This document shows, in pieces, positions 4,477 to 51,968 of a stretch of 64,000 nt of DNA. The stretch comes from Rhizoclosmatium globosum (taxonomy: Eukaryota > Chytridiomycota > Chytridiomycetes > Chytridiales > Chytriomycetaceae). The stretch lies in the NCBI GenBank assembly GCA_002104985.1, contig MCGO01000070.1, positions 1 to 64,000 of the forward strand. Reading direction: 5' to 3'. Each line of letters opens with the position of its first letter. Within the stretch, counting starts at the first letter, position 1. The notes below the pieces were generated by a model. It made no database searches. It was not told the origin of the DNA and worked only from the letters and a program-made list of their open reading frames with translations. Both the position numbers and the translations under genes were made by a program.

Positions 4477-4481
4477 TAAGT

Positions 4482-17800: not shown

Positions 17801-19420
17801 GCGCTGCTGGCACTGTTGCCTGATGGGATGCGAGGTCGACCTTGTTCATTTCGTCCGTAATCTCCTCTGCCATGGTCACTTCGTCTTTGGTCGTTTCTGC
17901 CATAGTCACCTCGTCCACGATCATTTCCTCCCTCGAACCTGCGGCCATCATCTCTCCGGCCCTCATCTTTTCGTCCATCATCTCTTTGTCCGTACCCAAA
18001 ATTGGCACCATCTCCTCGACGTGAAGGACTTGTAGACCGATCACGAGAATACCTTCCACCACCGCCACCACCTCTTGAAGATGAAACACCACCACCACCA
18101 CCACCTCTCTCATAACCACTTCCTCCTCTTTGTCGACCATGCTCATCTCTCCTCTCCGAATATTCTCCGTCCCGTCGAACATCTCCACGACTCGGACCAC
18201 TTGAATAGTCCGAGGTCACTTCCCTCCTTCCAGCCCCACTATCCCTTCCACCTTGATAAGAACCTCCCTGACCAAAAGAAGAAGAAGACAATGGTGCATC
18301 CATGGACACAAAAGCATCCCCTCTTTGAAACACGTCTGATTGATATTGATATTGACATTCATCTGTTGTTGATGTTGTTGACGATGTTTTCGGAACATGA
18401 AAAAATGCAGCCGCAGATGAGGGTTGTGGCACAGAAGCAGAAGAATATGTAGACGGATGTGTGGAAGAAGATGAAGACGAAGAAGCAGGCATAGTCGGAG
18501 CGACTGGAACAGCTGCTCCACGAATAAAAGAAACAGAGATACGACTTCCATCCGACAACTGTATATGATAATTAATTGTCTGCTTTATGAATTTGATTGT
18601 CTCCATCTGTTTGTTGCGCTTCTTCATGAGTGCATATCTTCACTTTCTTAGGCTTGTTGCATGACACAATGCATATTGCACTCGTTCCTCGCTCAATAAG
18701 AAGGTTATTATCTTCTGGTTCACTTCGCGAAAGGTCGTTCGCTGCGCTCACACATTTTCTTTCTTTGCTCACTACGTTCGCTATTCTTCTCATTTCGCCT
18801 GTTTCCACGCACCCTCAAAGCTCCTTCGTTCCTCAGTCTATGTTTCGGTTGTTCGTGTTTGCCCGTTCAACAATTCTTCACTCGTTCCTCGTTCAGTGAT
18901 AATCTCACTCCCGTGACTAGTGAACCCAAAAAAGGAATAATAAGAGAAGGGCACGAACCTCTTTTCCATCAGTTTCACGAACCACGTTTTTCCCAACATC
19001 GTGTTCGTATTCAAGAGTGGCAGTAGTGTCGGAAGTGCGGGTAAGACTGTCAAAAGAGAGTACAGTCAATACCAAACACAAGCCAGTACAAGGAAAACAC
19101 ACGTCTTTATCTTTCCATATCGGCGGAACAGGGCTTCGAGTTCAGTTGTCTGGTTGAGATGGTTTAGTTGCAGTTGGAGGGTGGCGACATGAGTAACAGT
19201 GTAAGGGATAGAAAGAAAGAGGAGGAAGGAGACAAGTGGCAGTGGCACGGGTTTCCATGTTTCCAAGGATTGAGCCAAGCACTGGTTTTGATCGACCCTT
19301 TCTCTTTCCCTTTCCCTTCCTTCAAAGTAGTCATAACTTAGAAGGTGGGTGTGTCCATAGGAAACTGTACCCACTCTGGCACCTAAAACAAACACGTATT
19401 GCATCGTACCTGAGCTTCTC
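14826..19420 (-). CDS. RRM-RGG-Argonaute fusion, slicer residues lost
   Basis: Reading the minus strand, an RRM is built from three exons. Exon one ends at 19103 ([15 protein letters not shown]). Exon two is 18959-19046 ([19 protein letters not shown]). Exon three starts at 18558 ([14 protein letters not shown]). A Ser-rich and then an RG/RGG/DR-rich low-complexity stretch follows. After it come the Argonaute N domain, PAZ ([19 protein letters not shown]), MID and PIWI, ending TMYWV at 14826. PIWI landmarks include [20 protein letters not shown], after a 57-nt intron. The catalytic positions read GAAMTHP (first Asp is Ala), LRTGVSDGQ (second Asp is Thr), AYYACL (His is Cys), and Gln at the probable Glu-finger site. 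It should bind guide RNA without slicing. The exact start is unresolved (about 19210-19420). Exon three was also considered as an independent start (Met at 18492), but the RRM reading is continuous and in phase. Confidence 0.85.
18559..18958 (-). repeat. Introner-like repeat, copy 1, in the Argonaute intron
   Basis: A 400-nt intron between RRM exons two and three. Positions about 18640-18915 belong to a family dense in GAGCGCAGCGAACGACC and GAGCGAGGAACGAG (given in the sense of the host gene). Shared landmarks in order: GTGAGAT-ATGACTGA-like start (here ATCACTGA), GACTGAGGAACGAAGGAG, GCGAACGACCTTTCGCGAAG, ATTGAGCGAGGAACGAG, ATATGCATTGTGTCATGCAA. The copy is shorter and more diverged than the other two. 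The splice acceptor ATACAG lies outside the repeat. Confidence 0.85.
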
Positions 19421-19527
19421 TTGTGAAGCGAGCCAGTTGCAGCCTTGATGAACTCATTTCTTTTTTCTTGTTTTCTTGTTTTCTTGTTCTTTTCTTCGTT
19501 TTCTACTAACACAAACCAAAACCAACA

Positions 19528-21191
19528 AATGGACGAAGTGTCCTCGGACTTCCTCTCGCTCTCGCTCTCTCTCGGCCAAAGCCACAGCAGCCAAGGCAGC
19601 CGCCAAAGCCAAGTCGCCAGTGCATCAATTGAGCCGTTTGTGTACTTGACAATCCTCGGCCACGCCCAACGACGCCCCGACGACCTTGGCCGAGTCATGG
19701 GCGTCCTTCTTGGCGCTGTCTCCGACGACGGCCTCGATGTCGACATTAGAAACTCGTTTGCGATTGCGATTACTGAGAACGACGACGAGGTATGTGTGTT
19801 AGGGTTATCGTTGTTTGTTAACCCTAACCCTAAGTCTCACTAACTCACTAAACTCACTTGGAAAAACAGGTCTCAGTCGACTCGGAACTCCTCCAGCTCA
19901 TGCTTGCTTCACACTTGCAACAGAACCCACGGGAAACCCTCGTTGGATGGTACTCAACCGGCGACAAGGTGGATGCGAACTCGGCCTTGATCCACGAATA
20001 CTTTATTTCTGAGTTTGCTCCAATCAATCCTCTTCATTTGGTTGTGGATGCCGATCTCAAGGATGGCCGCATGGCTGTGAAGGCTTTTGTGACGTATGTT
20101 TCTTTTTTCATGGTCCACAAAGAGAACTTCACTCATCCACAACGCCATCACCAACAAATATTAAAAACACGCAACAGTTCTGAAGCGGGTGTGCCTTCCT
20201 CGGAATTTGCTGGAACAATGTTCATTCCAGTTCCTGCCACCGTCAAATTCAATGAAGCTGATAGATCTGTCCTGGACTTGGTTTCTCTTGCTCGTCCTCA
20301 GGATTACTCATCGGACTCGTCAAACGACCAAGAAGCTTCTACTACCTCCGTTTACTCGGATATGGAGTCGCTCGAACGGGCAATCATTTCTATTCAAGGA
20401 ATGGTTGATAATATTCAGGAATGGGTGTCTGCTGTCAAGGTGAATACCAACGAGTGAGATCATGACTGAGCGAGGAACGAGACCTACGAGTGAGATCATG
20501 ACTGAGCGAGGGACGAGACCTACGAGTGAGATCATGACTGAACGAGGAACGAGTGAAGGAATGTCGAACGGGCGAACGCGAACAATCGAAAAACCGACTG
20601 AGGAACGAAGGAGGTTTGAGGTTGCGTGGAAACAGGCGAAAAGAGACGAATAGCGAGCGAAGCGAGCAAAGAAAAGGAAGTGTGAGCGCAGCGAACGACC
20701 CTTCGCGAAGCGAACCACAAGTCAATAACCTCCTAGTACTTCTTATTGAGCGAGGAACGAGCGAAATATGCATTGTGTCATGCAACAGGCCCTGCTTAGT
20801 GAGCGCAGCGAACGACCTTGTGCGAAACGTGGACACGTAGACAAAATGGGGCAAATTATTGTGTCATCCAAGAAGCCCCCCTGGTGAGCATAGCGAACAA
20901 GATTCAAATAAGGAGGAACCGGTACAAACAAAAACATGGATTTTCTGTAGCGCATTATTCTTACCAACACACACACATACTCACATCACTACTTAGTCCG
21001 GCGAAATCCCAGCCAACGACGCCATCGGCCGATACCTGCTCGACACTGTCTCCTCCGTCCCACTCATTCAATCTACAGACTTTGAGAAAATGTTCAACAA
21101 CCACTTGCAGGACTTGTTGATGGTTGTCTATCTATCAAACTTGACCAGGACGCAGTTGGCTATTGCTCAGCGTCTTCAGAACTTGGTTTAA
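19528..21191 (+). CDS. eif3f: Translation initiation factor eIF3 subunit f
   Basis: Start ATG 19528. Exons end at 19789, about 20094 and 20439; the last exon is 20997-21191. An MPN domain lacking the JAMM metal ligands begins at IEPFVYLTILGHAQRR and includes MGVLLGAVSDDG and NPRETLVGWYSTG. The C-terminus carries NHLQDLLMVVYLSNLTRTQL, very characteristic of eIF3f. It functions in the eIF3 complex at the 40S ribosome. The third intron (20440-20996, 557 nt) is filled with the introner-like repeat. The first intron contains inverted telomere hexamers. It is divergent from the Argonaute gene with a very short shared upstream region. Confidence 0.95.
20440..20996 (+). repeat. Introner-like repeat, copy 2, in an eIF3f intron
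   Basis: The intron donor is GTGAAT and the acceptor ACTTAG. From about 20450 it contains the repeat in the sense orientation of eIF3f. First come three tandem 36-bp units (GAGATCATGACTGAGCGAGG and so on). The shared body follows, with GACTGAGGAACGAAGGAGG, GTGAGCGCAGCGAACGACC, TTCGCGAAGCGAACCA, CCTCCTAGTACTT, ATTGAGCGAGGAACGAGCGA and ATATGCATTGTGTCATGCAA, to about 20900. The element begins only about 10 nt after the donor. Exon frame across the intron is phase 0 (AAG to TCC). Confidence 0.92.
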
Positions 21192-21420
21192 AGTAGGGAT
21201 TGGAGTAGAAGGATATGCATTATATGTATTTTTTGAACGCCAGATGATGGATTTGGGGAATGTGCTTGGAAGTTGGGGGATTCTTATTTCTTCTTTGTGC
21301 ACATATTTTTGAATGGGAAATAGCATTCACTTTTTTTCTTTCTTTACACATTATATACACAACTCAAACGCACAATATGCAAATGAACGATTTATTCAAT
21401 ATGGAATCACGGCACTCTAT

Positions 21421-23133
21421 TTACTGCTCCTTCGCATCAGCCTTGGTTTCAGATGTCTTGACAACCTCCTCCATCATTTCACTCGCCATGCGTTCCAACT
21501 CTTCCTGTTCTCCCTCTTCAACAACCTCTCCATTTCCATCCCCTTTCTGTCCTTGCTCAATAATCCCCATCAACCCCTCCTTATTCAACTTCCCACTCAC
21601 AAGCATTTCCCGAATCGCCTCTTTACTCCCCGCATACACTTCCTTGAACACTTTACTCACCTCCGTATCCAACACAAACACCGGCCTTCCTTTCCCCTTC
21701 CCCTTCCCCTCCCCCTCGTCCCCATCTCCCCCATCCTCCAAAACAAAAAACCCATCCCTCCGTCCAACAATCGCCTGCTCACAAATCCGCCCAACAGCAA
21801 CCCCAAGCGCAAGACTCAACGTAACACTAATAACAACATCAACAACCCCGCCAGCAACCGTCCCAAACCCAGGAATCATCTTCAACAGATCGGCCCCAAA
21901 CATACCCGCAAGCGGCGTCGCCAGCACGTTCTTAAAGAGACTCCAATACGTGCTCCGGTTCTCCAACCCATATACTTGACAAACCCCGGTCAGCTCCGTG
22001 TACTGCGATGTGACAACCAATGGAGCGTCGATGAAGGGGATCGGGTTCGCACCGAGGCCGGCGGATACGAGTGTGGAGGTGATGACGACGATTTTCGCGT
22101 ATTCGCGTTTGGCGGATGTGTCGATGAGTTGAGCGATTTGGAAGCGGCGGTTAGAGGCGAGTGCATCTTTTGAGGGTTTCGTTGTTTGTTTTGTGGGGGG
22201 TGTGGTTGTAGTGGTATCGGGGGATTCGGGTTTGGTGTCTGTAATGGTTATTGGGTTCTTTGCGAGGATGACTTGTTTAGTGGATTGGATGAAGGTGTGG
22301 AGAGGGTGTGTGGGAGATGGGGGAGATGTGTCGAGTTTGAAGGCTGTTTTCGAGAGGTCGCATGTGGAGTTGGAGCAGAACCAGCCATTGAAGTTTGATT
22401 CGGGTACGTGTTGTTTGTATGCCTTTGAGGCACAGTCTAACAAATAAATACGAAATTAAGTCATATGATCGCCCCTACCAATACATTGAAAACTAAAGAT
22501 AATCTCACCAGAGCAAGTTGGATCCGGCTTATTCGACACACGAACCACAACGCAACCAAGACCCTTCAACATCTGTTCAGCCGCATCCGCTTCCTGCACA
22601 GCCACCAAATCAGACTTTGACAGCACAGCAACAAGAGGCACACCAAGAGCCTTAATACTATTCACAGCCTCGAGAGTTTCAGGATCGGGAAGACCGGCAA
22701 CAACAATCCAGGCAGCATCCACCTTTGCATCATCATCGATATTGGGCCAACGAGAAGCCTTGACAAACACAGCTTTCTTTGACTGTTTTTCCGGTGGTGT
22801 TGGAGTAGTGGCAGTGGCAGTAGTAGCAGTACCACTTGAAGCAGCATCGTCAAGAGGAACATCGCTCAAGACCTCCTCCTCTTCCCCTTCATGCTCCGCC
22901 TTTTCACCAAGCCCAACTCCAAACACCTTCGTTACTAGCGAGGTAGCCCCACTTCCCCTGGGCCCAGCAACAATTAGGCGGAATGGCTGTGATGCAAGTC
23001 GCTCCAGAACAGAGTTTTTGACAGGCTTGTCCTTGTCCTTGTCCTTTTCTTTGGTATCATTGGTTGTCTTGCTGCTTGGTTCTTTGCTTTGGCTGCTACT
23101 GCCACGGCCAAAGAAGGACGAGATGCGTTTCAT
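21421..23133 (-). CDS. DUF697 GTPase-like protein, paralogue 1
   Basis: Start MKRISSFFGRG at 23133, one intron near 22440-22510. After a Lys/Ser-rich N-terminus comes a G-domain-like fold with VAGPRGSGATSLV at the P-loop position, where the usual GK[ST] Lys is Ala, and LSKSDL at the NKxD position. Next is a Cys set (CSDC, then GWFCSNSTC) resembling a zinc ribbon. Then comes a DUF697 membrane-associating domain (GANPIPFIDAPLV, GMFGADLLKMIPGFGTVAGG, hydrophobic VVDVVISVTLSLALGVAVG). An acidic, Lys/Gly-rich tail ends the protein. DUF697 occurs behind Era-like and IRG-like GTPase domains. With a degenerate P-loop this may not hydrolyse GTP. It is tandem with the next gene, same strand. Confidence 0.8.
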
Positions 23134-23275
23134 CTTTTGACTTGTGTGTTTGGAATTGTGGAAATTGGAAATTGATCCCTTATTTTTTATTTTCGACGGT
23201 GGCGACTGGTGTGCCAAGAGAAATGCATTAATAATCTACTGTATTTCTATGATAGTGGTGGTGTGTGTAAGTGTT

Positions 23276-25056
23276 TTATGGTTCCTTCCGACTCTCGTTC
23301 AATGTCTTGTCATCCACATCAACATCTGAATCATCCTCATCCTCAGAATCATCAGAATCAGATTCCACATCCTCTTCCACATACTTTGACAAACTGGATC
23401 CATTCACCAACTCGCCTGTCGACGAAGAAGCAGCACCCCAGTTCAAGAGCCCCATCAATCCATCTCGACTCAAAGTTCCATTTTTCAGCATTCCTTTCAC
23501 AATCTCTTTTGTCGCCGCATACGTTTCTTTAAACACTTTTGTGACTTCACTGTCGAGGATAAACACGGGTCGTCCACCTTCATCCAGTGGAACTCGCTTT
23601 CCTTTACGTCTGTTGATGAGTGTCTTTTCAGAGATACGTCCGACAGCGATTCCAAGACTCAGACTCAATGCGATGGATATAGCGACATCCACGACAGCTA
23701 TTTATGCGTTGTTTTTTTTAAAAAAAAGTTAGCATGCTGCGGACTGACTGATCAACTCAAAAATCAAGTTAACACATACCACCCGCAACAGTTCCCATTC
23801 CAGGAACCATCTTCAACAAATCCGCACCAAACATACCCGCAAGTGGAATCGCAAGTACGTTTTTCACAAGCGCCCAATAACTATTCCGACTTGTAAGTCC
23901 ATACGTCTGCGCCATTTGAACCATAATTGAATACTGTCCTCCAATCACAAGCGGTGCATCAATAAATGGAATTGGGTTGACACCAAGTCCCGCGTTAATC
24001 AGAGTATCCGTCAATAAGACTTGTTTCGCAAGTTCGAATTTGGAAGTGGTATCAATGAGCTGAGCGACTTGGAAGCGTCTATTCGTTTCGACAGCTTCTT
24101 TACTTGGCTTGTTAGGGTTTAACGGGTCCGTATCATCCACAACAGGATCCTTTGCCAACAAGACTGTTTTGGAGGCGTGTATGAGGTTGAGTAGTCCTCC
24201 ACCTGCAAGTGGGTCTTTATCGATTTTGAAAGGAGTTTCTGCCAAATCACAGTCGACATTGTTGCAAAACCATCCTTCGAATTCTCCAAATGAGTCCTTG
24301 TATGAATCGGAACCGCATTCTGTTCAACAGCATAGTTTACAAATTAATACATCCTTCGCACCAAAGTAAACCCGATTAACAAAGAAACATACCTATGCAA
24401 ACAGGATTTGGTGGATTCGCAACACAGATGCACTCCCATCCAACCATATCCTCCCCCAACACACCTTCAAACACCATCTGAGCCTCCTCAAGCTCCTCCT
24501 CCTCCCTCACATCCTCCTTACTCAAAACAACAACAACAGGAATCCCACGACCCCGCAACTCTTCCGCAACATGAAGTGTCTCCCAATCAGGGGAACCCGC
24601 AGCCACAACCCACGCCAGATCAGCACCCTTCTTGTCGATATTCGGCCACCGAGAAACATGAATAAAGTCAGACTGTTTCGCATCTTTCTTTGCAGTTTCT
24701 GTTGTCTTTGTTGAGTTGGTTCTTGGTACCGGATCCTTGTCTCCCTCTGAACCACTGCTGCTGCTCCCCTTAACTAATTCACCAGTGAATTCGCCCAAAT
24801 CCGCCGATTCAATCGCAACAGAAACACCAAAGACACTTTGGACAAGCGTCGATGCTCCACTTCCTCTTGGACCCGCAACAACAAGGCGGAATGGTTGGAT
24901 GGTAAGCATCTCTTTGACAGTTGAAGAAAGTGTTGGTTCTGATGTTGGACTTGGGGGTACAGGCGACGATCCATTTGTGCTTGTTGGAGTTGTGGTTTGG
25001 CTCTTGTCTTTGTCTTTGACACTGCCAAATCGGAGGAGGTTGGATAGCCGTTTCAT
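23276..25056 (-). CDS. DUF697 GTPase-like protein, paralogue 2
   Basis: Start MKRLSNLLRFGSVKDK at 25056; introns near 24310-24400 and 23697-23780. It has the same architecture as its neighbour: degenerate P-loop (VAGPRGSGASTLVQSVFG, again no Lys), VLSKEDV at the NKxD position, CIECG with GWFCNNVDC, a DUF697 core (GVNPIPFIDAPLVIGGQYS, MFGADLLKMVPGMGTVAGG) and a strongly acidic C-terminus with D/E/S runs. The two genes are tandem duplicates 140 bp apart and have diverged mainly in their tails. The extra intron splits the DUF697 block after GTVAGG. Membrane-linked GTPase-like function is inferred. Confidence 0.8.
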
Positions 25057-25178
25057 TTGGAACAGGGTTTTTGAAGTTCCTCAAATTGGCGTTCTGAAAC
25101 AAGATTAAATACAAAGAGAACTTGCACGAGAATTTATGTTATTAGCAAAAGTAAAATGAATATAGTGAATGAATCCAA

Positions 25179-26137
25179 TTACTGCATCATAGAACCCATG
25201 GAGTACTTGCCTTCAGTCTCATCCCATACAATCGGCGAAAGAATGTAACTTGAAGCAGAGTAGTTGTTGATATTGAAAGGCATCTGGCTTTGACCTTGCA
25301 TGTTCGTCACATTAGGTGGTAGTGGTATATTGGAAGTCCCAGAAACAGACGTTTTCGGTGAATTGAAAGGCGAAGGCAGCAGGCTCAGTTCCTCAACCAT
25401 CGCCGATCCATTCCCCATAAAAGTATACATTGGCGAAAGAAGGTTCAATTCAGTGTGCGTGCACCAAGGATAGGGTTTCTGAGGCAAACTTTGAACTGGA
25501 TTTGTTGTCTTCTGGCCTGAATTGTATTGATTTGAAGGTAGAAGACTCAACCATGTTGTCGATGAAGGTATCAAGTCGAGTTCCGCCATTGACCTTGTTG
25601 CATCACTTTGAGTTCTTCGGGTCCTCACAAGCGCTTGTTCACTTGGTACACTCTTCTTGCCCACTTCGCCTTGCTTGTACCCATGAACCTTGATTCGATG
25701 CTTCCGAAGGTCATGCGCCCTGCAATAAGAGCAGACAATTAAGGACAACCCACCCCATACCCGAACAGAAAAAAAAGGGGGTGAACCACTCTCAGCCTTA
25801 TCACTCACCACTTGAACTGAGCGCTACACTCTCCACACGCATGTTTCGGGTAAGTAAGGTGGCTTCTGCAATGCGTCAGCAGTTGGTCTCGTTTCTTGAA
25901 GGGGTTATTGCCTCTTTTGCAGTTAAGCCAGTGACATATGTGCAACGTTCGGGTGTTGTCCTTTCGTACAGGCGGGATATGAGCTTCAGCGAGGTGCTGA
26001 TGTAGATCTGCGGCAGTGGAGAACTGCAGATTGCATTGAATTGTGTGTTGGTTCTGTGTAGTAGGTGACCAATGACATGTAAAGTCACAAGCGTTGTCGA
26101 GGGGGTATGTGGCTGGGAAGGACTGTGGTTCACTCAT
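25179..26137 (-). CDS. C2H2 zinc-finger protein A (tandem array)
   Basis: Start MSEPQSFPATYP at 26137; one intron at about 25730-25806 inside the third finger. Three fingers: an N-terminal one ending STAADLHQHLAEAH, a second with CHWLNC, FKKRDQLLTHCRSH, and a third with CGECSAQFKW-intron-RAHDLRKHRIKVH. The rest is Ser/Pro/Asn-rich and resembles an activation region. It is probably a nuclear transcription factor. Genes A, B and C share finger spacing and the intron position after the F-K/T-W residues, so they arose by tandem duplication. Confidence 0.85.
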
Positions 26138-26698
26138 TGAGAGAAAGTTTGAATAGAGCCGCTGCTGTAGTCTTTTCGGCGTTACGATTATTTTTTTGTC
26201 ATTTGAGGAGCCTGGATGGAGCCTGGAGGAGGCTGCATCCGAAGTTGGATTGCCCAGCTAAATCAAACTATTGTCTAGTCGATTTGAGGTTAAATGATTT
26301 CATTAATAAGTCGGAGTTTCCGCATTATAAAGGATCACTTTAGCAAAGGCTGTGGGAGCACAAATGCACTGGAGTGACAAGCCGCATCAATCCCAAATGA
26401 AAACATTCCGACAACAGAAGCAATTCGTCTCTATTTCCGCTTGTGAAATGATGCCATTTCAGCTTTGGAAGGCGGAAGCGTGCAGAGGCAATTTTGATGC
26501 GAGTTACATCTCCAAAATTTATTGGTTCAAGACAAGCCTTCTCCGTCATCATATAACAGACACCACCTCGAACCACACCTTCAATTGAAAAAAGGCATTT
26601 GAATAATTTATTATCTATTACAAAAGAACTTTCAATAAAGAAAGACAGCGAATTAAAAAACAGTGAACAACTAAAAACACAATGAAATGAGCTCCTAG
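26138..26698. other. Spacer between zinc-finger genes A and B
   Basis: Contains the upstream region of gene A and the 3' flank of gene B. Open frames here do not resemble proteins. No repeat or RNA gene recognised. Confidence 0.5.
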
Positions 26699-27605
26699 TT
26701 AGCCAAACACATTATCCACACCCACTAAATAGGCACCTCCGTAGTTTTCGAATGCCATTGGAAGTGTTGGGTAATTTAGATAGCATTCAGGATCGTAAAA
26801 GTCACTTGAGTCTGCATCGCTAAGGTCAGTCAGACTCCCAAAGTCCGTTTGACCCGACGAACTACAAGGCGACCCCAAACGCCAACTCTCTTCCAAAGAA
26901 GCAGTTCCATTTCCCAAGAATGTTGGCATCGGGATTTGTGACAGCGGTAATTTAAGCAAATTCAGGCTTGGCCCCAGTGATGTGTCCCAAAGAAACAAAG
27001 TCTGTTCGGTTGACTCAAGAAAAGATGGACCAATTGTCGAGTGGGTTAATGAAGTGTTCATGGGTTGACTCGAGCTTGTACAGGATTGGGTCATGTTGAA
27101 ATGAACCCTTTCGTCTGGAAAACCCAAGCAAATAACTCCCTTTCCCGAGCCTTCGGCTGCCCGCTTAGATTCATGTACTTTCGCTTGATGCTTCTTGAGA
27201 TCGTGTGGCCTATATCACCCAACGAAAAAAAAAGGCGAAGCCAGTCAGCTATGATATGAAACACCATCACTCCAAACAGGTAACTCACCACTTGAACTGG
27301 GCGCTACACTCTCCGCATGGATGTTTCGGGTATGTAAGGTGACTCTTGCAATGCGTCAACAACTGATCCCGCTTCTTGAACACTTTATCGCTGCGTTTAC
27401 AGTTACTCCAGTTGCACTTGTGAATTGTCCTTGTGTTGTCCTTACGCACAGTTGGGACATGGACTTCGGAGATGTGTTGGTGTAAGTCAGCCGCAGTGTT
27501 GAAGTAGAGGTTACAGGGCCCGTGCGCCCCAGATATCCATTGACACAGAAGTGACGGGACTCCTTGCTGATAGTCGACAGTTTGCGACTTGCGTAATGCG
27601 TACAT
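26699..27605 (-). CDS. C2H2 zinc-finger protein B (tandem array)
   Basis: Start near 27605 (first Met of MYALRKSQTVDYQQG). Three fingers match gene A closely: NTAADLHQHISEVH, CNWSNC with FKKRDQLLTHCKSH, and CGECSAQFKW-intron-RPHDLKKHQAKVH. The intron (about 27210-27289) is at the same codon as in A. The C-terminal half is Ser/Thr/Leu-rich with acidic patches (LTDLSDADSSDFYDPE), suitable for an activation domain. Of the three genes, B and A are closer to each other than to C, and share the linker VRKDNTRT. Confidence 0.85.
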
Positions 27606-28106
27606 GGGAGGTTATCAAATTGATTAGCGCACGCGCGTGTATCGGAGTGAACTATTTTCCAGGTGAATTTTTCATTGGGAGAGGCGAAAATTTTTAGAAG
27701 AGCCTGGGGGCCTGGGTAAGTGGTGAGCTTTGTAACGTGGGTTACACTATTGGCACTAGTCCTTCTTCAAAATGATTTCAATGCTTCCTGTCGTAAAATC
27801 GTCCAAGAAACCGTTTGGCATGATCAAGTGATTCATTCAACTCTCTATTTTTCGTTGGTATCGTTATTTTTGTCGCAAATGTCGTTCAAGCCTGTATTCT
27901 TGAAGCAGAAAATTTTATTTAATACTGCGGCTATAGCATCTTTAGGCAAAATTTCAAATGCACTGGTTTAGACACATTTTATTCATGGCAATACTGCAAA
28001 TATTCATCGGAGGTGTGCTGCTGCTAATAATTCTTCAGGTATTCCCATCGCAAAAGGCCGAAAAGAATCTGTCTGGTTCATTGGAAATGACACATTCGTT
28101 ACGGTG
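27606..28106. other. Spacer between zinc-finger genes B and C
   Basis: Upstream region of gene B and 3' flank of gene C. I see no supported gene, repeat or RNA. Confidence 0.5.
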
Positions 28107-29072
28107 TTACTGGTCAATGACGAATTCACGATAGGACATATACACAGGTCTCTGATATTCTGGACGCCGTTGCGGAGAAGGGGGTAACATAATAGGAACG
28201 TATTTAACTCTTCGTCCCGCTCTTTGATCAAACGCATTGTCTGGCACATAGTTTGGAGGTAACTGGCAGAATTGGGGTTCAAAGATGGTACGTCGCTGCG
28301 ACTGATGCCTGGTTTGGAGCCATCCAACTCGATTTTCCACTAGAAACTGTTCATTCGAATGAACTTGTCGAGGAACGGCGTAAGGCTGGTATGAATGTTG
28401 TGATTGATGAAGGAAATATGGATTGTGAAGTCGTTGTGCCGTCTGAGAATTCGCTCTTGGAGGTTCTTGTGATTGTACTGGTAACAAACTCGGAAAGGCG
28501 AGTGCTTTTGGTGTTTGGGGTGTGTTCAATTGGGTGCAAGTTGGGTTCAAGTTCAAGTTCAAGTTTCTTTTCTGGACCTCAGCAACTGTATCTACTGTGC
28601 TCTTCTCTCTAGTTCCATCAGCAGAGTGATGCCTCAATCGGTGTTTCCGTAGATCGTGAGTCCTGTAAAGTGCGGTTATCATCAAACTCAGAATAAAAGG
28701 ATTCAAGCCACAATCGCAACCACATTACCAAGTGAAGAGCGAGCCACAATCATCGCATTTACTTTTTGGAAATGAACAATGGATGCGAATGTGAGTGAGG
28801 AGCTGGTCCCGCTTTTTGAACGGCTTTCCTTTATATGCGAGTGGGCAGTTCTGCCATTGGCACTGCAGTTCACGGGGATTGAAGTCTAATTCTTTTCGAG
28901 GCTTTACGTGGACAGTGGCAATGTGTAGGTGTAGCTCTTCGGGAGAGGCATATTGGGAACTGCAAATCGATTTGGAATCCAGCCCTTTCTCTGTGGAACC
29001 AGCAGGATCGGACCCTTTTGTTAGGTCCCATTTGCATGAATATACTATTTGAGAGTCGTCAGGTGCCTGCAT
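28107..29072 (-). CDS. C2H2 zinc-finger protein C (tandem array)
   Basis: Start ATG 29072 (MQAPDDSQIVYSC); one intron at about 28664-28727. Three fingers: the first is divergent (CSSQYASPEELHLHIATVH), the second is CQWQNC with FKKRDQLLTHIRIH, the third CDDCGSLFTW-intron-RTHDLRKHRLRHH. The tail is Gln/Pro/Asn-rich and ends in a basic segment. The intron position is shared with A and B. Most diverged member of the array; probable transcription factor. Confidence 0.82.
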
Positions 29073-29159
29073 TCTGTTCGATCGGAGAGAGGCGCACTGA
29101 AGGTACGATGAGACACTTTGGAACAATTGAAAAATTTATCTACAACATGAGATTCATTA

Positions 29160-30348: not shown

Positions 30349-30421
30349 TCTTTTTTTAATTCAAAGAGGAAGAAGAAGGAGAAGAAGAATAATAAATATT
30401 AATTAATTAAAGGTTGTCTCC

Positions 30422-33179: not shown

Positions 33180-33338
33180 TATTCGTGTTTAATCTGTTCT
33201 CCACGATTCAAAAGTTGGGCTGAAGTGATTTGCAAGAAAGATTTACTGAATTTTCGTTCAAACGAAAGCAAGAAAAGCAGAAACATACAAAAGATACAAA
33301 AGATATATATGACAAACAGAATTGCAGATGAACAGGAT

Positions 33339-35944: not shown

Positions 35945-36189
35945 TTTGAGAGTGTTTTTGGAGGAAAGTGTGACATAGCAAAGCACAAGAAGGGGAACCC
36001 GATAACAGATCAAACCCTTCTTTTACCTCTTTCGTCGATAACACAGGATAAACTATTTGTACGATTATCCTTCTTTCTTTTACAGATTTATGAAAGATAT
36101 GTATGTATTTATTGATTATTGGTATGTTCAGCTGATAGCGTCCAGTTCTGAAACTTGTCCAATAAAAACAATATAATTCACAAAAAAGA

Positions 36190-37968
36190 AGTTATTCCTC
36201 ATAATCCGAAAGCAAGATGACCAACTCATCACCATCGATCTCACTCGTGTCCAGGTCATTGATGGATGTGAACTTGTTATGTTCCTGGCGCTTTTTTTAG
36301 CACTTGATCTTGTTTTATACGTTCTTCGTGGAGGAATAACTGTTCAGAATAAGTGGTTAATATACAGATATAATTGAGTACACAATGAATATCTTACTCT
36401 CTTCATCTTCACTGTCATTGACGCCATCTCCATCATCCATCATTTCTTCACTCCCAGACTCATCTACAACATCCCGTTTCGATCGTTTCCGACTTTTCGG
36501 CTTCACTGATTTCAATTTTTTGGGGTCGTTCATTTCGATAACATATATCTCCTCGTTGTTTGTATCTGTCCCTTTCCCCAAAAGGCCATCTTCAAAGTGC
36601 TCAAAGCGATAGGCCAAATCATTGATTTCAACCGGCCAGAGAGGTAAAAGGTAGGCGTATTGTAGATTCCCTTCGTATTTGAGTTTTGAGAGGTCAGGTT
36701 TCTGAAACGTGAATGAAATGGTTAATTAATTCTTGCTTTTACACCAAACTAACCTCATCAAAGCCGTATTCGCGTTTCTAAGAATAATAGTGAGTTTACG
36801 TTTAGAGCCTTTTACTCGCATACCACTGAAACCCGAGAGCCTCCTTCATTCTTTACTCCAGACACACAATCCTCAGATTTAACTTCATCATCAATCTTCA
36901 TATCACTATCGATCCGCTCCTGCTTAATCTTTTCCTCAAACTTGATTTCTTCCTGCAAATCACGCTTCCCAGGAACACCATTATTCAGCTCCTGCGCCAT
37001 TCGAAGATGGACCTGCTTGTTAAAATACGCCATCCCAAGAATATTCTTTGGCAACCCAAACCGAATCAACATCTTCTCCGCACTTAGACTCGGAATACAG
37101 AATGTGTGATCAAATTCAGCCATAGCAAGTCGTGCGGCATCGCACTACTCTTGATTTAACATGACGGCAATAAGAAAGAAAAAAGTCAACTCACGGATCC
37201 ATAAAACGAAAGATACGGCCCCAACTTCTCCATCCCAAGCAACGCAGTATACACCTCTCGCTGCGTCGGCATCTCCCGAAACAACTCCCCAGAAACACGC
37301 TCCGAATACTCCCAATTCTTTCTCAAGATCCCCTCCCGATTTTCCGGAGTAATCGACGCACTACTCTGATTCCCCGCCCGCCACCGAATCTGACGCTTTT
37401 TCGGCAACTCATCATTCGTAATATCAATATCCCTGAAAACATCCAGCAGCTCTCAATATCGTCCACGTATCCAATCGACGAGCAAACGTCCAGCTGACCA
37501 GAAGCCCAAACGACAGATTAAACAAGACAGCCGGGTGTGTCAGATCCGTCCTTTGAAGACTGATTTCTTCCCGTCTGAGAGAGAGCACCACGCTTCATAG
37601 CGGACACCCACCATGTCGTAGTCCTTGTCAGACCAGGGTTCTGGTTCATTTGCATCCCACTTTTGCTGAATCTTTGTTTGTTCCACGGAATAGTCGACAA
37701 ACGATTCAAAGAGCGGATTGCCAAGCAACGGGACTTCATCGAAATCGACAGAGAGAACGTTCTTTGGACAGTGTTGGCTTTTTGATGTTTTGTGGCCGTA
37801 AAAGCCGCACGATGAACAGATTTTGGGCTTTGTTTCTTCGGATTCTTGCTTGACTTTGGCTTCGGGTTTCGACTTGGTTGCTTTGGTGCCAAAGTTGGGA
37901 CACTTTCGTGAATTGGGACGCTGGTGGTCTGTTCCTTCACACGAACTGCACTTTTTGCTGAGATTCAT
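36190..37968 (-). CDS. Acidic zinc-knuckle protein, unrecognised family, paralogue 1
   Basis: Start ATG 37968 (MNLSKKCSSCEGTDHQRPNS). The N-terminus has two Cys/His knuckle-like motifs (CSSCEGTDH-x-x-C type and CSSCGFYGHKTSKSQHC). Then come NEPEPWSDKDYDMVGV, NREGILRKNWEYSERV, MPTQREVYTALLGMEKLGPY, AQELNNGVPGKRD, an acidic/Lys-rich segment, and KPDLSKLKYEGNLQYAYLLP with a C-terminal D/E/S-rich tail. Introns near 37440-37545, 37145-37195, 36780-36835 and 36700-36760 fit. The 3' end is unclear: an A7 run near 36290 shifts the frame away from a plausible acidic C-terminus. Many Blocks recur in the gene at 39514-40973. No known family; nucleic-acid binding is only a guess from the knuckles. Confidence 0.65.
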
Positions 37969-38198
37969 TTAATGGGTTATTTGATCATGCGGGTGGGGTA
38001 ATTTGTGAAGGGGGGTGGGTTCACCTCATAGTTATTGGTATTGCTTGGTTGTGGAGAAATTGTGAAAGGAGCTTGAACCAATTAATATAAAGAATAATGA
38101 TACATACAACGTGTTTCAAAATGAATCTAAAATACAAAAAAGCAATGAACTTCATAAATAGCATTCCCTCCCTCATATTCCCACGAATCCAACCCATT

Positions 38199-39362
38199 TC
38201 AAACAGCCGCAGCAGTGTGAGCACTCGCAATAGCCGCATCCTGATGATACTGCTGAGCAGGTGCAGGACGCTGAGTCCCCAAAGTCGCCAGATAGTTTCT
38301 CATTCTTTGGCTCCGAACAACTCTCTTTGACAAAGCCTCAAATCCACCCAACGGCTCACCATCAACTTCAGTATCATCATCCGCCAATCTCTGTCCATAG
38401 GGCCCCAACTCATACGTGCGGTTTCGGTTCATCAAGTTCTTGCGACGCGAACAGTATACAAACACTGCAACCGCAGCAAGGGCGAGTACAACAACGATCG
38501 CGATGGAAATTCCAACAACAGCTCCAGTAGAGATATCATTCTTCTTAGGAACGCCACCGAGACCGTCAGGACTTGGACCTAGTCGCAAAAAGTTTAGATC
38601 ACACAACTTCAGGCACATTCCCCGAAAAATACACATACCAGTCCAAACCTGAATATCCTCACAGACACTTGACACGAAACTCCACCATCTGGACTCATCA
38701 GCCCGTCCACGTATACGAAAGCGACGTAGCCGTGACAGGAACTTCAAACACATACACGACCCATTGCTCGTCATTGATATACGTCACAGCCGTTGGATTA
38801 TTCACATTCATTGGCTGAGTATCATACACGACCAAATTTGCATTCGCGGCTTGAGTTCAGTTATTAGACAAGGGGGGTACACACACCACACACCAGCAAA
38901 CTCACCAGGATAACTTCCAAACCGATATCTAACTTCTGTAATGTACTGCACGCCAAAGTTCTGCGACCAATCGATTGTGATTGATTCGGGGCGAGTTACG
39001 TCACAGGTTCCTGGTGCTGACACCCACTGGCCTGTCGCGTTGTTTGAAGCAAGGCCGATTACGTTACTTTAATGTCAGTTTGGGTTAGCTTTGAATGGCT
39101 CCAAAATGAGTATGGAGGGGGGAATACCTGGCAGAGCAGCGTCCCGACACACAAGCTCCAGTCACACTTGTTGAGGATGCAGTTACAAGGGCTCCACTGG
39201 CAACATTGAATGGAATAAAGAGCTCTTCTGTTGGTTGGATTCGATTCGAATTGATAGTACGCGGTCAATACTCCTTAGTACCCCTAGTCATGTTATACCT
39301 GCTGCTGCAACAAGTCCAGGTAATCCAAGAAGAGCGATAGAAGTGGTCATGAGAGAAAGCAT
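38199..39362 (-). CDS. Single-pass surface protein with short cytoplasmic tail
   Basis: Start ATG 39362 gives a signal peptide (MLSLMTTSIALLGLPGLVAA). The ectodomain spans several exons and includes GACVSGRCS, WVSAPGTCDVTRPESITIDW, FGVQYITEVRYRFGSYPG and INDEQWVVYVFEVPVTATSL, a beta-rich, Ig-like or carbohydrate-binding-like arrangement that I cannot assign. A membrane helix (GAVVGISIAIVVVLALAAVA, then VFVYCSRRKN) leads to a tail of about 90 residues ending in Ala/Gln-rich sequence. One base is missing in a GGG run near 38703 for a continuous frame. It lies between the two unrecognised paralogues. Confidence 0.65.
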
Positions 39363-39513
39363 GACTGAGTTAACAGAGATTTTTGTGCGAAAGTTTCGAG
39401 TTGTGGATGGTTGTGTTTGTGGGAATACTTTCTTTTTTCCCGCCACCCGTCCGTAACGAAAACAGAAAAGGTTCATATGTCCATACTATGTATTTATCTG
39501 CGTAATTATGTGG

Positions 39514-40973
39514 CTAAATTCTCTTTCTTTTTCCACTCTTGTTTCCTGCAGCATTGTTACTTGAAATCATGTCAAATTCTGCTTTCACACTGAAACCCTC
39601 CTCGGATTCCGCTTTCACTTCTTGCTTAATAAGCACAATTTTAGACGCTTTCTCATCTCTCTGATTCTTCCTTTTCGACTCTGTTGAAATCACATCGGTT
39701 TGCCCGGTGTCATCTTCGTCCTGCAACTCCTCCTTCACCTTCACTTGATTCTTTTCTGTTTTGATTCTCTCCTTCTTCATTTGAATTTCTTTCTTTTCCT
39801 TCTTTACACGAGCATCGTCTTCTTTCATCCAAGCTGCCATCACTGGATCAGTTTCTTGAAGATATTGCTTGAACATATAGAACAGATCGTCGACTTCATA
39901 GGTTAAAAGGGGAAGTATATTGTGATATGTTGGATCTGGTTTCGGTAATGGATCACATTCCTATGTGAAGAATGAGAAAAAACATCATGATGTCAAATGA
40001 GAGTGGATAGGTTCACCTCTTTCACTTTTGGGTTTTCTCTACGAGATGCAGAATCATTCGTTTCAGTCTTTATCTTGATATCCGCGTCATCCTCGTTCTC
40101 TAATTTAACCTTTTTGTCATCTCCAACACTTTGCTTCGGGGAATAGCTTCCAGGAACACCATTATTGAGTCGTTCACAAAGAATCTTGTTTAAAACGCGC
40201 ACAATAAACTCCATTCCTTTTTCGAGATTTGCTTTGATGTTTGTGAATTTCATGGCCACGAGAAGCTGTTGCCCTTTGAGTGATGGGGGTGTATGGTTGG
40301 ATCATACGACGCCAAACCCAAGGCAACCGCGTTCGCCTATGGAAATCTTATCAATTTATACAGAAAGGAAACCATAAAACTTAACTGAACAGTAAAAGGC
40401 CAGGTAATCGCCGCAATATAAAACCCTTATCCTTCGTCGCATCGCCCCGCATGGCCTCATACAAGTCACGTTGAGTCAAATGCATACCTTTCGAAACAAG
40501 TCCGTCGATTTCCGTTGAGAATACCACCAGTTCCTACTCAACATTGCCTCGCGCTTCTTCAAGTCAGTCGCAATCTTCACCAAACACTTAATCTCATTGA
40601 ACCAGTAACTTTTTCTTCATCCCATTTATACATTTGAACGAGAATTGTGCGTAAGTCGGTGATGTACCCGACCTGTTCTCGCTGAAGAATATTCCAACAA
40701 TGAAAAATGCTAAGGATCTCTCGCGAATTACTTTTCGTCGTTGCGAAAGAATGGAAACAGAATGGAATGATTGTATCCACTTAGTATTGCTGCATCTGTT
40801 GTCCAGGGCTCAGGTTCCTTCGCGTTTATTTTGGTTTGGATTTTAACGTGTTTTTCAGTAAAGTCGGCAAGACGGAGAACCAAATCGTTGGTCAGAAGTT
40901 CGGGAATGGTTGGTTCTCCTAATTGGATGCTTGGTTGATCCTCAGCGTCTTCTTCTTGCATTTCAATCGTCAT
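39514..40973 (-). CDS. Unrecognised acidic protein, paralogue 2
   Basis: Start ATG 40973 (MTIEMQEEDAEDQPSIQLGE). It shares blocks with the gene at 36190-37968 in the same order: AKEPEPWTTDAAILSG, KKREAMLSRNWWYS, MHLTQRDLYEAMRG, CERLNNGVPG, LPKPDPTYHNILPLLTYEVD, then a Lys/Glu coiled region and KSGKRKRI at the end (possible nuclear localisation signal). The N-terminal knuckles of paralogue 1 are missing. Frame changes near 40300 (C5 run) and 40530 need one-base corrections, so it is either a slightly decayed copy or affected by assembly errors. Function unknown. Confidence 0.6.
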
Positions 40974-41092
40974 TTTCGTATATACAATTATAATAAATTG
41001 TTTCTACAAAAACGCAATTCATTTGTCAAACAGTCTCCGCTCCCTCAAAAGATTTCCATAATTTCCCCCTAGTACAGAACCTCCCCAACAAA

Positions 41093-42874
41093 ATGGCAAT
41101 CTTCACAAGACTGAAGCGACTCCTAAAGCGACATCTGAACAAACCATTTGGTCTCTCAATAGACTGGGGAATAGTGCTCCCCTATTCTTTGTCATCATCA
41201 CAGCTTCCTTGACGGCAATTTGGATCGCCAATGGATTTGTACATGCAATGAACTTTGCCGCGCCGTATATGCCCGTGACGAGGAGTCATCGCGATCATTT
41301 TAATCGACCTAGGTTGCGATATCCGAAAGTTCAGATGCCGCCTCCCCAAGGCATGATAGGCAGGAAATCGGGAATATGGGACCCGTTACATTGTCGAAAC
41401 TGCGGAAACATCGGTTCTCGAAGATTGACAAGAGGGCTATGAATGTTGGACTTATTGGATTGAGTCAAGCGAGTCCAAGTGTGTTTCTAGTCAATTGTTG
41501 TTGAAGGTTTCTAACTACACACTTATTGCTTTCAGCTGGTTCTGAATATATGCTATATAATTATGGTAAATATTAAAATCCCATGTTACGCGTCATCTCT
41601 AATTATTGCTTCTGATGGATAGGGGGTCCTACAATGGTTGCGCCAATCAACTACTGTAAGTAGCGTACTTGGGTTTTAGAAAATCAATTAACTTCTTTAT
41701 AGATGTAATTTGTAAGACTTTTTCTCTTCCTCGCCACCGTTTCTAATGGATCATTTCCAAATTCTCATTCATAACAACTTCAGGGGTAACATCTATCCTC
41801 AAAAAACCAGCAATCAAACTCACTAACTTACTTAATTTATACAGTACGGAAACACATGGTCCGGCTACGAACAAAACATGCAACAATTCCACACATTCCT
41901 CAACAACCTATGTAAAAAACCCCAACCCCTCCCTTCCCTTCCACTCATCTAAAATACTCCCAAAATTCAACAGCGTCAGGATCATGGTGGCAACTAATGG
42001 CGCAATACAAATCCCCACCCTACTCCCGCTTCCGCGGCGCAGCAATCATCCCCAAAAACCTCACAATCACAGACGAACTACAAATCCGTCCCATGATCGG
42101 AGACCTGATCGCTCGAAACATCTTCCCATCCGACCCGAACGCGTTATACGTGTTTATTTCAGGGTTTGATTCAAAGCCGAACCAAATCACGACGCAGGGG
42201 AGCGGTTATTGTAGTGTGTTTTGTAAGTGGTTTTCTTTAATTTGTGATTTGAAATTGGATGTGATCGATTGCGGGTGTAAATCTTTCAGAGGGTAACCTT
42301 TACTGTTTTTATGACAGGTGGATTTCATTCGGACTTTGTTTCTCCTGCGACCAAATTCGCGAATATTAAATGTAATTACCGGACGACTGCATCTGCATTC
42401 GCAAATGATATTAACTGGAGCGTTCAATAGACCTATTTGGAGGAATGACGTGTAACTATTGCGGAAACTCAAACCCATGGACAGCACTTCAACTAACAAT
42501 ATCACACGAAATCGCTGAAGCAGTAATGCACACCACCTTCGATATTTTATTTAATATTTACGTCAATACATAGATCACAGACCCGTTGGTAGGCGATGTC
42601 TCCATCGTGGGACCGCCGCTTGCATGGTACAACGAAAAGTATGGTGAAATCGGTGATATTTGTAATTCCATGTAAGAAAAAACGATATACCATAAAAGTA
42701 TCCTTGACTAACTTTCTTTTTCAAGGATGGGTACATCAATTTCAAACGTGGCAGGACTACCCAACCAAGTTGTACAGGTATGCCAACTCATATCAACCAT
42801 CAAAACCTAATTCACCATCTCGTTCGCAGAAAATCTGGTCCAACACAGACCAAAAGTGCATGCCTCTATCATAA
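41093..42874 (+). CDS. EXORDIUM/phosphate-induced protein 1-like protein
   Basis: The core is clear. The exon reading YMLYNYGGPTMVAPINYY is followed by YGNTWSGYEQNMQQFHTFLN, SWWQLMAQYKSPPYSRFRGA, DPNALYVFISGFDSKP, CGFHSDF, SHEIAEAV-intron-TDPLVGDV, GEIGDICN and a final VVQ-intron-KIWSNTDQKC to the stop at 42874. This matches the plant EXORDIUM/PHI-1 family: secreted, with a conserved HExxE-like helix, linked to growth and sugar response in plants. The 5' part is uncertain. An ATG at 41093 with a hydrophobic segment (APLFFVIITASLTAIWIANG) probably gives the signal region, but needs a frame change. A 9-nt ATGTAATTT between splice-like sites at about 41702 could be a microexon. One further indel sits near 42432. 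Confidence 0.75.
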
Positions 42875-43135
42875 CTCACCAACAACCTCCCACTTCAGCT
42901 TCTATATATCAAAGTATTCAATGTAACCAATAAACGCAATAATATGTCTTTCCAAATACTATATATTCCAATCCACAAGAAAGCAAAAAGCCAAACCACC
43001 AGCCCAACAAAATAAAAAAGCAAAACAACACGCTATGACCCAAACACATACACCTCAAAAATTCCCTACAACACAAAACAACAAATCATGCAAACCCCAC
43101 ATATCAACAACCTCCAACAACATACACAAACTCTC

Positions 43136-45723
43136 TTACTTAATAGCCTTCTTCAACATCCTCTCAATCTCATCATAACTCTCCGTCCCAACCCTAACAA
43201 TCTCTTTCCCAAAGTGTCGCTGAATCGCATCCATCTCCCTAAAACTCTTGGCATCGTGCACAAAGTTGATACTAACACCTGTGCGGCCGAACCGCCCCGT
43301 TCGACCGATACGGTGCAGGTACGTCTCAGGATCGACAGTGGTTCCATCAGCGAGGAGCGGCATGTCAAAGTTGATAACGAGGTTGACTTGGAGAATGTCG
43401 ATTCCACGGGAAAGGACGTTGGTGGTGATGAGGACTTTGGATTTTCCTTCACGGAATTCGTCAATGACGCGGTCACGTTCGGGACCATCGAGGGATCTAT
43501 TGATTGGTTTAGAAGGCGTGATTGTAGACGATGGAGTTAGGAAGCAATATAACGTACCCATGAAGAAGAGAAACGGCATGTCCTTCATCATTCATAATCT
43601 GACACAACTCATCCGCCTTCCATTTTTGCTAAAAAAAATACTACCAGTCAGCCTCGAACACACACACACACAAAAACCATCACCCAATACGTACACGAAC
43701 AAAGATGATACTCTGCCCAATAGTAAGCAGTCCGTAAATCGCCATCAGAATCTCAGTCTTGTGGTCCTCATCCCTACAATCCATGTAAAGCTGCTTGATG
43801 GCATCCACACTCAATTCCTCTCTCTTCAAAGTAATTGCACGCGCATTGGGTGCGATACGGGCAGCAAAGTCGCGAAGCTCGTCGGTCCAGGTTGCTGAAA
43901 AGAGAAGAATTTGACACGTTGGAGGCATGAGTTTGCGGATACGGACGGATTGGTCACCGAGACCTTGGCTGTTGTGAAAGACTGAGTGTTGCGAGAAAGT
44001 CCAAGAAAAAAACAGATACGTACAGGTCAAGCATGTTATCGGCTTCGTCGAGAACAAATACTTTGACTTGAGCAAGACTGATCATTTGCTTACGCACGTA
44101 TTCCATTACAGTTCCTGGAGTACCAACAACCAGTTGAGCGTCAATTTTCGTGTTTCTGTTATGATATTTAGTAAGCTTCATTAATCAGATGTCTTTCTCG
44201 TTCTTCGAACGATGAGAACTAACCTGGGAACTTCCATGTCCTTGATAGCAAAAGCAGTAGTGACACCAGTATATTTTCCCATCTCTTTGGCCACCTCCAT
44301 AATCTGTCTGGCAAGTTCTCTGGATGGAGCAAGACAGAGAGCTTGAAGAGCGGGATTGGAATGATCGATACGAGAAAGCATAGTGAGAGTAAAAGCGGCT
44401 GTCTTTCCTGTTCCAGACTGAGACTGACCGACCATGTTTTGTGGTGGGTCAGATAGAAGCATTGGAAGGGCCTGTTAAAGTGGATAAGTGTCCGGGTGTA
44501 TAAGATTCCATTGCACAATATTCCCTCTCCTTCGTCCTCTTTACATGAGTTCGTTCGCTGCGCTCACATCCTTCTTTTTTTTGCTCGCTATTTCTCCCTT
44601 TTCGCCTGTATTCACGCTTCGCGTAAGACTTTGCGAAAGGTCGTTCGCTGCGCTCACTGAATAGGGCTTGTTGCATGACACAATGCATATTTCGCTCGTT
44701 CCTCGCTCAATAAAAAGTACTAGGAGGTCATTATCTTCTGGTTCGCTTCGCGAAAGGTCGTTCGCTGCGCTCACACTTTTTCTTTCGTTGCTCGCTGCGC
44801 TCGCTACGTTTGATTCGCTTCGCTCGCTATTCGTCCCCTTTTCGCTTGTTTCCGCGCAACCTTAAACCTCCTTCGTTCCTCAGTCGGTTTTTCGATTGTT
44901 CGCGTTCGCCCGTTCGACATTCCTTCGCTCGTTCCTCGTTCAGTCATAATCTCACTCGTAGATCTCGCCCTCGTTCAGTCATGATCTCACTCGCAGGTCA
45001 CATCAGAGAAACCCACCCTCTCTTGAATCTTTGACGGCTTCTGAAAACCCATACTGTAGATACCCTTGAGGAGGTCAGGGGAAAGGCCGAGATCCTCAAA
45101 CTTTTTGACACCATGATAAAGAGTAGGATCGACAGTTCCGTCGGCCAAATGCACGACAATTTTATCAGTTGGAGACGAGTCGGCGTTGTTTCCAGCGGGA
45201 CCCGAAGACGAGTCGGCGCCCCATTCATCGTCATCGACAAGACGCGAGTGTTTTGGAGGTGGTGGAACATCGTCTGATTTGAAGAGAGTTTTGTTTGTTT
45301 GTTTGTTGGTTGGTTGTTAAAGCAGGAAGATACGAACCATTTGCGGACAATGTCGATACTTTTGCAGCGATTGAATCAACTGTGATTTGAATTGATTGAT
45401 TGAGTACTGGTTTGAGAAAGAGAAGAAAGAGAAGAGAAAGAGAGGGTACCGGTGCTCTGTTGCTGTTGTTGCTGCGATGGCGACTGTGGCTGGGCGGGCC
45501 AACCACGCCCAGAGAGATCAGTTGTCTTTGGCGGTGCACCCCAGCCTTGGTTTTGAGAGGTTAAAAGAGGTTAAAAGAGGTTAAAAAGAAGGTTTGGTTT
45601 AAAAGGGGTAATACGACGAAAAGAACACTCACTCGATGCCCCGTTGTTCGATGCGACTGGTGGTGGCGTTGGAAGCTCAGTATCGCCCCAGGCTCCAACT
45701 GGCGAAGTTTGCGATGGATTCAT
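43136..45723 (-). CDS. DBP5: DEAD-box RNA helicase DBP5/DDX19
   Basis: Start taken at ATG 45723 ([14 protein letters not shown]). The N-terminus is Gln/Pro/Ser-rich over three short exons. The core follows: [20 protein letters not shown] (Q motif region, PSKIQERALPMLL), motif [34 protein letters not shown] (DEAD box), SAT-type block near 43910, [20 protein letters not shown] and [21 protein letters not shown]. The C-terminus ends [10 protein letters not shown]. It functions at the nuclear pore in mRNA export and in translation termination (known family role). The intron at 44472-45016 carries the introner-like repeat; the other introns are 50-110 nt. Confidence 0.93.
44472..45016 (-). repeat. 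Introner-like repeat, copy 3, in a DBP5 intron
   Basis: A 545-nt intron, donor GTGGGT, acceptor AACAG, with the exon frame AGG to GCC intact. In the sense of DBP5 it runs GAGTGAGATCATGACTGAAC, GAACGAGCGAAGGAATGTCG, CCGACTGAGGAACGAAGGAG, GTGAGCGCAGCGAACGACC, CCTCCTAGTACTTTTTATTG, ATATGCATTGTGTCATGCAA, then a second, partial repeat of the GAGCGCAGCGAACGA module. It is collinear with the eIF3f copy over about 400 bp at high identity. It begins about 28 nt after the donor. Confidence 0.92.
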
Positions 45724-51600: not shown

Positions 51601-51835
51601 CATTGAGCGATTGCGGAACACGGAATGAGAAATATAAGAGAAATTATGAAATAAATGCAAAGCTTGGCAATGACGAAGTATGTTGCCTTCCCCAGTTCGG
51701 TTTGAACCGCGGTTTGAAACCGAACCGTTTTGTGTACTTAATGAACCGTGGTTTAGCTTTGGCAAGCGGTTTGAACCGTGAACCAAACCGAACCAAACCG
51801 TTCAAACCGGTTTCCCTTCACGGTTCCGTGAAAAG

Positions 51836-51954: not shown

Positions 51955-51968
51955 GATTAAGAGCTCAT

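Follow-up and report, generated by a model that had tools for sequence, protein, structure and literature searches.

Three Introns of the Window Share One Repeat Family

A stretch of 64,000 nucleotides (nt) from the chytrid Rhizoclosmatium globosum (contig MCGO01000070.1, positions 1 to 64,000; C389:1-64000 in the numbering used here, referred to as the window) was analyzed together with the whole genome assembly (56.9 Mb, 420 contigs) for a repeat family that fills long introns. The window carries the repeat in introns of an Argonaute gene, an eIF3f gene and a DEAD-box helicase gene (table 1). An earlier note on this DNA had placed the three introns at these coordinates, strands and lengths, and the predicted exon junctions all join in frame there. 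Its gene names hold for Argonaute (PAZ, Piwi, ArgoL1 and ArgoL2 domains were found) and for eIF3f (JAB and MitMem_reg domains); for the third gene a DEAD-box helicase domain was found, and the name DBP5 is the note's own. As had also been proposed, one repeat is present in all three introns, in blocks of 133–151 nt with 88–95% identity, which is far beyond chance. The blocks appear as inverted pairs because the host genes lie on opposite strands. A BLAST search of the window with four element introns returned exactly these three segments (E <= 1e-4), which bears out the claim that the window copies lie only in introns and only in sense.

Table 1. Coordinates in the window of the element introns and of the repeat modules
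Feature	Position	Strand	Basis
Argonaute intron, 400 nt	18559..18958	-	Predicted in-frame splice; Ago domains downstream; similarity extent
eIF3f intron, 557 nt	20440..20996	+	Predicted in-frame splice; tandem array; similarity extent
5' module, 36-nt unit ACCTACGAGTGAGATCATGACTGAGCGAGGAACGAG, three copies in the eIF3f intron	20446..20553	+	Tandem array
Body with GAGCGCAGCGAACGACC, GAGCGAGGAACGAG and ATATGCATTGTGTCATGCAA modules in common with the DBP5 intron	20678..20826	+	Pair I1; genome-wide patterns
DBP5-like DEAD-box helicase intron, 545 nt, same repeat	44472..45016	-	Predicted in-frame splice; DEAD domain spans the junction; inverted pairs I1, I3

The element introns follow a recurrent order. 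The host donor and a few bases come first, followed by the 36-nt unit with TACGAGTGAGATCATGACTGA in one or more copies, then by a body and by unique 3' sequence. The body is rich in GCGAA and GAGCG motifs and includes hairpin-like and GTGAGCGCAGCGAACGACC modules. In many of the element copies a ATATGCATTGTGTCATGCAA module follows, before the unique part with the branch and acceptor. The sense strand of the element introns is 62% purine. The eIF3f intron consists of three 36-nt units (two in the other haplotype, contig C163), the body and a unique 3' part of ~96 nt with branch and acceptor, and the Argonaute intron of 48 unique nt behind the donor, the repeat and ~90 unique nt.

Genomic Distribution and Orientation

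A search of the whole genome with the eIF3f intron gave at least 86 matches (40 of 63 first-look candidates were scored). Pattern searches that were blind to gene context gave 39 exact matches (0 in the control), 52 matches for a second pattern with up to three mismatches (1 in the control) and 19 matches for a third pattern (0 in the control). After merging of haplotype copies, a set of 39 distinct gene loci was examined; C10:103875-103962 and C66:53817 lie outside this set, and a lone 21-nt motif with three mismatches at C357:41391 has no similarity around it. Exon borders of the element introns were placed by hand and checked by a Pfam scan of the spliced peptides.

Predicted coding sequence on the same strand flanks the repeat on either side at 38 of the 39 loci, and an in-frame GT-AG junction is predicted at 36 of these 38. 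The exact junction is unsettled at the other two (C376_96 and C101_134), where both flanks appear to be sense coding sequence. At the last locus (C57_598, C57:598368) the repeat lies on the same strand behind the last recognizable coding sequence, in either the last intron or the 3' untranslated region. No antisense or exonic copy was found among the 39 loci, and none of the 38 resolved loci is intergenic. An all-against-all BLAST of the 38 introns gave 3667 same-strand and 0 opposite-strand matches. The 21-nt 5' motif occurs in sense in 24 of the 38 introns and never as a reverse complement, with a mean of 0.1 out of 38 in shuffled introns. A first automatic scoring favored an antisense model at C101_429 and C57_598 only, and manual reading placed a sense junction at C101_429. 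The earlier note's picture of one intronic, sense-oriented repeat family thus extends to the whole genome, where the examined copies are neither mostly intergenic nor randomly oriented.

Among 20 spliced peptides in the Pfam scan, a single domain spans the junction in 15: patatin, CN_hydrolase, NIF, SPRY, aminotransferase, Mgm101, Cdc20 WD40 (a partial sequence with a match under the curated cut-off), MCM_N, DEAD, GTP_EFTU, HMG box, ABC_tran, protein kinase, TRAPPC9 and C2H2. Of the other five, one has a weak match short of the junction and four have no match. Outside this genome, exact element motifs were found neither in viral_contigs nor in genome_contigs (0 in each).

A distribution of this kind might arise if an ordinary non-autonomous transposon or minisatellite inserted at random and selection purged its exonic and antisense copies. 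The tandem modules and the length changes between haplotypes would fit such an origin, and acceptor-like sites are scarce in the interiors whichever strand is read, which would suit tolerated insertions (0.14 per kb antisense and 0.29 per kb sense, against 1.03 per kb in the window). However, acceptor-like sites are no more frequent on the antisense strand than on the sense strand. Donor-like sites number 2.0 per kb antisense, 2.29 per kb sense and 1.67 per kb in the window, and no excess of splice-like sites was found on the antisense strand that could account for the orientation by selection. Selection also explains poorly why intergenic copies are missing. A search for terminal inverted repeats of at least 11 nt found none in two of the window introns and only an 11-nt palindrome, within the unique tail, in the third. 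Random insertion is therefore considered very unlikely. The absence of terminal inverted repeats is not decisive for introners (elements that create introns) in general, since seven published families also lack them.

An autonomous parent element with inverted ends was considered and rejected: the divergent pairs of copies ~1.7–2 kb apart each sit in an intron of their own divergently transcribed gene.

Borders of the Repeat and Host Splice Sites

For each of the 38 introns, the lead was defined as the distance from the donor to the start of the shared part and the tail as the distance from the end of the shared part to the acceptor (borders defined by BLAST, in which chance similarity may add a few bases). 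The median lead is 9.5 nt and the median tail 72 nt. The earlier note had put the start within about 10–45 nt of the donor, which describes the DBP5 copy of the window (~20 nt) but not the eIF3f intron and the other DBP5 allele (0–10 nt) or the Argonaute intron (48 nt). Overall, the shared part begins within ten intronic bases of the 5' boundary in 20 out of 38 introns and further inside in the other 18. It ends within ten intronic bases of the 3' boundary in none (0/38), and the unique tails are all at least 20 nt long.

The start is closer to the donor than random placement predicts. The mean lead is 13.1 nt in 26 of the 38 introns (the 12 introns with a lead plus tail above 120 nt were excluded), compared with 25.5 nt under random placement (0 of 50000 draws as low, P < 0.0001) and 19.0 nt under a stricter placement (P = 0.0005). 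The first copy of the 21-nt motif lies a median of 11 nt behind the donor, and at most 17 nt in 17 of 24 introns.

The ends of the introns are not shared. The copies in the eIF3f and MCM genes match at 95.7% over 231 alignment columns and yet differ in their leads (GTGAATACC and GTAATTCTT) and in their tails, indicating that the element does not take the donor and acceptor ends with it when it is copied. Among the 38 introns, no copies were found that match over the whole intron, both splice sites included. The donor hexamer appears uninterrupted in the listed junctions, with no predicted split of the stwintron type.

A constant starting point behind the donor, ends that are not shared and a chimeric module order would also be expected if introns swapped their interiors through gene conversion, or through template switching, with the common splice-site consensus as the seed and no mobile element as such, and the different numbers of modules in alleles of one intron agree with this. 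Homogenization would however require copying between unlinked loci, and flanking exon sequence was not seen to travel along; it is regarded as rather unlikely.

Length and Age of the Repeat

Element introns are 187–852 nt long (median 403 nt, 38 introns). The comparison set of ordinary introns, 12 taken from the eIF3f gene, the DBP5 gene and an MCM gene of this genome, spans 51–87 nt with a median of 65 nt. These introns were read by hand in the three genes, and automatic detection was dropped (25 introns compared with 14 on reversed sequence). The suggestion of the earlier note that the elements create or expand introns is thus upheld for expansion, the element introns being about sixfold longer, while creation is not borne out.

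Lengths differ between haplotypes, for example ~397 versus 519 nt and 522 versus 1222 nt. The latter pair is the intron of an MCM gene beyond the window (C389:92012-93154), where C389 carries the 1222-nt form and the haplotype contig C161 the 522-nt form, a tandem growth of the repeat. In the genome as a whole, many loci are found on two to four contigs with ~95–100% identity, as retained haplotypes or recent duplications.

The haplotypes of the eIF3f region are 96.8% identical. This divergence of ~3% is close to that of the youngest element copies, which suggests that the spread was fairly recent, yet older than the sampled haplotypes.

Pre-existing Introns or Intron Gain

Lead and tail together (median of the sums 85 nt) have about the size of one whole ordinary intron, which favors pre-existing introns as targets. 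In the aminotransferase gene, the paralogue copies on C122 and C401 carry an intron of 55 nt whose site and phase match those of the 672-nt element intron, and the first eight bases (GTATGTTT) of the two introns are identical. This comparison supports a putative insertion into a pre-existing intron at the aminotransferase locus. It is no proof, as parallel gain at the sites of regular introns elsewhere has been described (PMC4457414). A Cdc20 paralogue contains an intron 12 residues away from the element site.

A modular, orientation-locked repeat probably colonizes mostly pre-existing introns immediately downstream of the 5' splice site and makes them longer; most host introns would then be older than the element. 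Under this reading, a modular repeat family, with no single fixed transposon, would move from intron to intron and would target short introns (~50–90 nt), mostly pre-existing ones, right after the donor and always co-oriented with the gene. Each invaded intron would retain its own donor and its branch-to-acceptor part, so that splicing could continue, and inside the intron the repeat would expand and contract through tandem duplication of its modules. Copying might proceed via RNA or via repair guided by the splice-site consensus; this is a guess, made because either would explain why the repeat is found only in introns and only in sense and why it starts at the donor.

Several observations weigh against colonization of older introns. 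The 3' part of the aminotransferase element intron has no recognizable kinship to that of the paralogue (P = 0.89). At the glycosyltransferase locus, 22 out of 32 matches, including two tandem neighbors, run intronless through the element site (the 32 matches include allelic pairs and one pseudogene), and intron gain may have occurred at this locus. Paralogues of the NIF phosphatase, patatin, nitrilase, SPRY, EF-G-like and DEAD genes likewise have no intron at the element site, although they are mostly only ~28–45% identical (up to 55% for EF-G-like). No empty allele was found at 31 loci searched by their exon flanks: among the first 12 loci, most of which are single-copy in the assembly, there was one further copy, with the intron, and among 19 further loci other haplotypes were found for many, with the long intron wherever both exon halves were listed (one half only for C389:179417). 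Finally, the distance from the donor to the best-matching copy of the 21-nt motif (median 15 nt) is like that of random placement (P = 0.30); this measure shows no offset because the best-matching copy is often a later tandem unit.

The intronless glycosyltransferase matches, and the parallel gains described in PMC4457414, would suit a classical introner that lands in an exon, makes an intron by co-opting splice sites and later has its 3' end diverged or replaced. Families that carry neither splice site have been described, as in Florenciella (PMC9860276). The same explanation draws on near-repeats at two splice junctions. At the patatin locus C135_196 (L032, C135:193000-200000) the donor sequence recurs at the acceptor (GGTACGATAC and GGTATGATAC, 9 of 10 bases in register), and at the nitrilase locus C146_391 (L038, C146:388000-395000) the two junctions carry GATGAAGGTGA and GATGCAGGTGA (10 of 11 bases, also in register). 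The remaining 30 loci in the comparison do not resemble these two, and target-site duplications at the exon borders, a check that the earlier note had proposed, gave no general signal over the 32 loci (run-length sum 189 vs 187.4, P = 0.41). Also against exon landing are the 3' ends, unshared in all 38 introns, and the combined size of lead and tail. A classical introner is accordingly judged unlikely.

RNA Features of the Element Introns

The earlier note had suggested that the dense repeat motif may be a structural feature, which the folding results do not support. Among 13 folded introns, 12 lie within two standard deviations of their dinucleotide shuffles (20–40 shuffles each) and one has z = -2.19, the sense folds ranging from -2.19 to +1.82. 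Strong RNA structure is a feature of the introner-like elements of the Dothideomycetes, and no strong fold was seen here in the 13 introns. No known RNA family reached its gathering score in the window, and the eIF3f intron gave one chance-level match (E = 0.81).

Other Features of the Window and Host

Apart from the Argonaute gene, the coding genes of the window include a Cdc24-like gene and a Ty1/copia-type element. The former belongs to a pair of tandem duplicate genes (47227-49469 and 50095-52154). The first duplicate contains CDC24 calponin and RhoGEF domains followed by a PH domain and a C-terminal TIR domain, and such a fusion of a Cdc24-like RhoGEF with a TIR domain looks unusual. The Ty1/copia-type retrotransposon (53029-58488) consists of a zinc knuckle open reading frame and an RVT_2 reverse transcriptase, and a 142-nt repeat at 51813 and 58513 (93%) may represent its terminal repeats. 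A satellite array (1765-4512) is composed of ~19 copies of a 136-nt unit (~92%), a telomere-like CCTAAC repeat lies inside the contig (4678-4720), and glycine-rich-like coding repeats at 62-777 and 8280-8959 are 95–97% identical, a recent duplication. The RIB43A flagellar family is present in the genome, and the host is probably a zoosporic fungus.

Discussion

The repeat resembles several known intron-bound systems in part. Introners of the DNA-transposon type are defined in the survey PMC9860276 by similarity that starts within ten intronic bases at both boundaries, and the word chytrid does not appear in the main text of that survey. Like these introners, the present repeat is one family in introns of unrelated genes with similarity that reaches the 5' boundary. 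Unlike them, it comes within ten bases in 20/38 introns at the 5' side and 0/38 at the 3' side, with neither target-site duplications nor terminal inverted repeats found. By this published two-ended definition the repeat family is not a member of the introners, though it is gene-bound and repetitive like them. The introner-like elements of the Dothideomycetes, as described in PMC4457414, are similar in being of a fungal type, gene-bound, free of target-site duplications and terminal inverted repeats, and present in species-specific copies. They differ in that they are near-identical whole introns including the ends, whereas here only the interior is common and the donors differ.

The sister stwintrons of the Hypoxylaceae and Xylariaceae (PMC12403724) resemble the present repeat in that they insert at the 5' donor of an intron, or close to it, and are copied between genes. 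There, however, a complete intron with near-terminal inverted repeats splits the donor after its first base, whereas here the donor is whole and no such inverted repeats are present. Intronic transposons and minisatellites, the class that PMC9860276 filtered out, also have similarity confined to the interior and tandem modules. The present repeat is unlike them in its restriction to the sense orientation, the lack of intergenic copies in the examined loci and the start close behind the donor, and it is not an ordinary intronic transposon. No description of a 5'-anchored, sense-only intron filler was found in the literature searched, the coverage of which is partial.

Tentatively, and with somewhat less than even confidence, the family may represent a new class of intron parasite, one that uses the transcript or the spliceosome to enter existing introns in sense, directly behind the 5' splice site, and that makes these introns longer but creates no new ones. 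Introner scans that require similarity at both ends would miss or discard such a class. How introns are invaded and grow to great length is an unsettled question, and a repeat locked in this way to the sense strand, introns and the 5' splice site speaks for copying tied to transcription or splicing and not for plain DNA transposition. This idea of copying can be tested directly, since some forty gene loci are available, each in two or three haplotypes.

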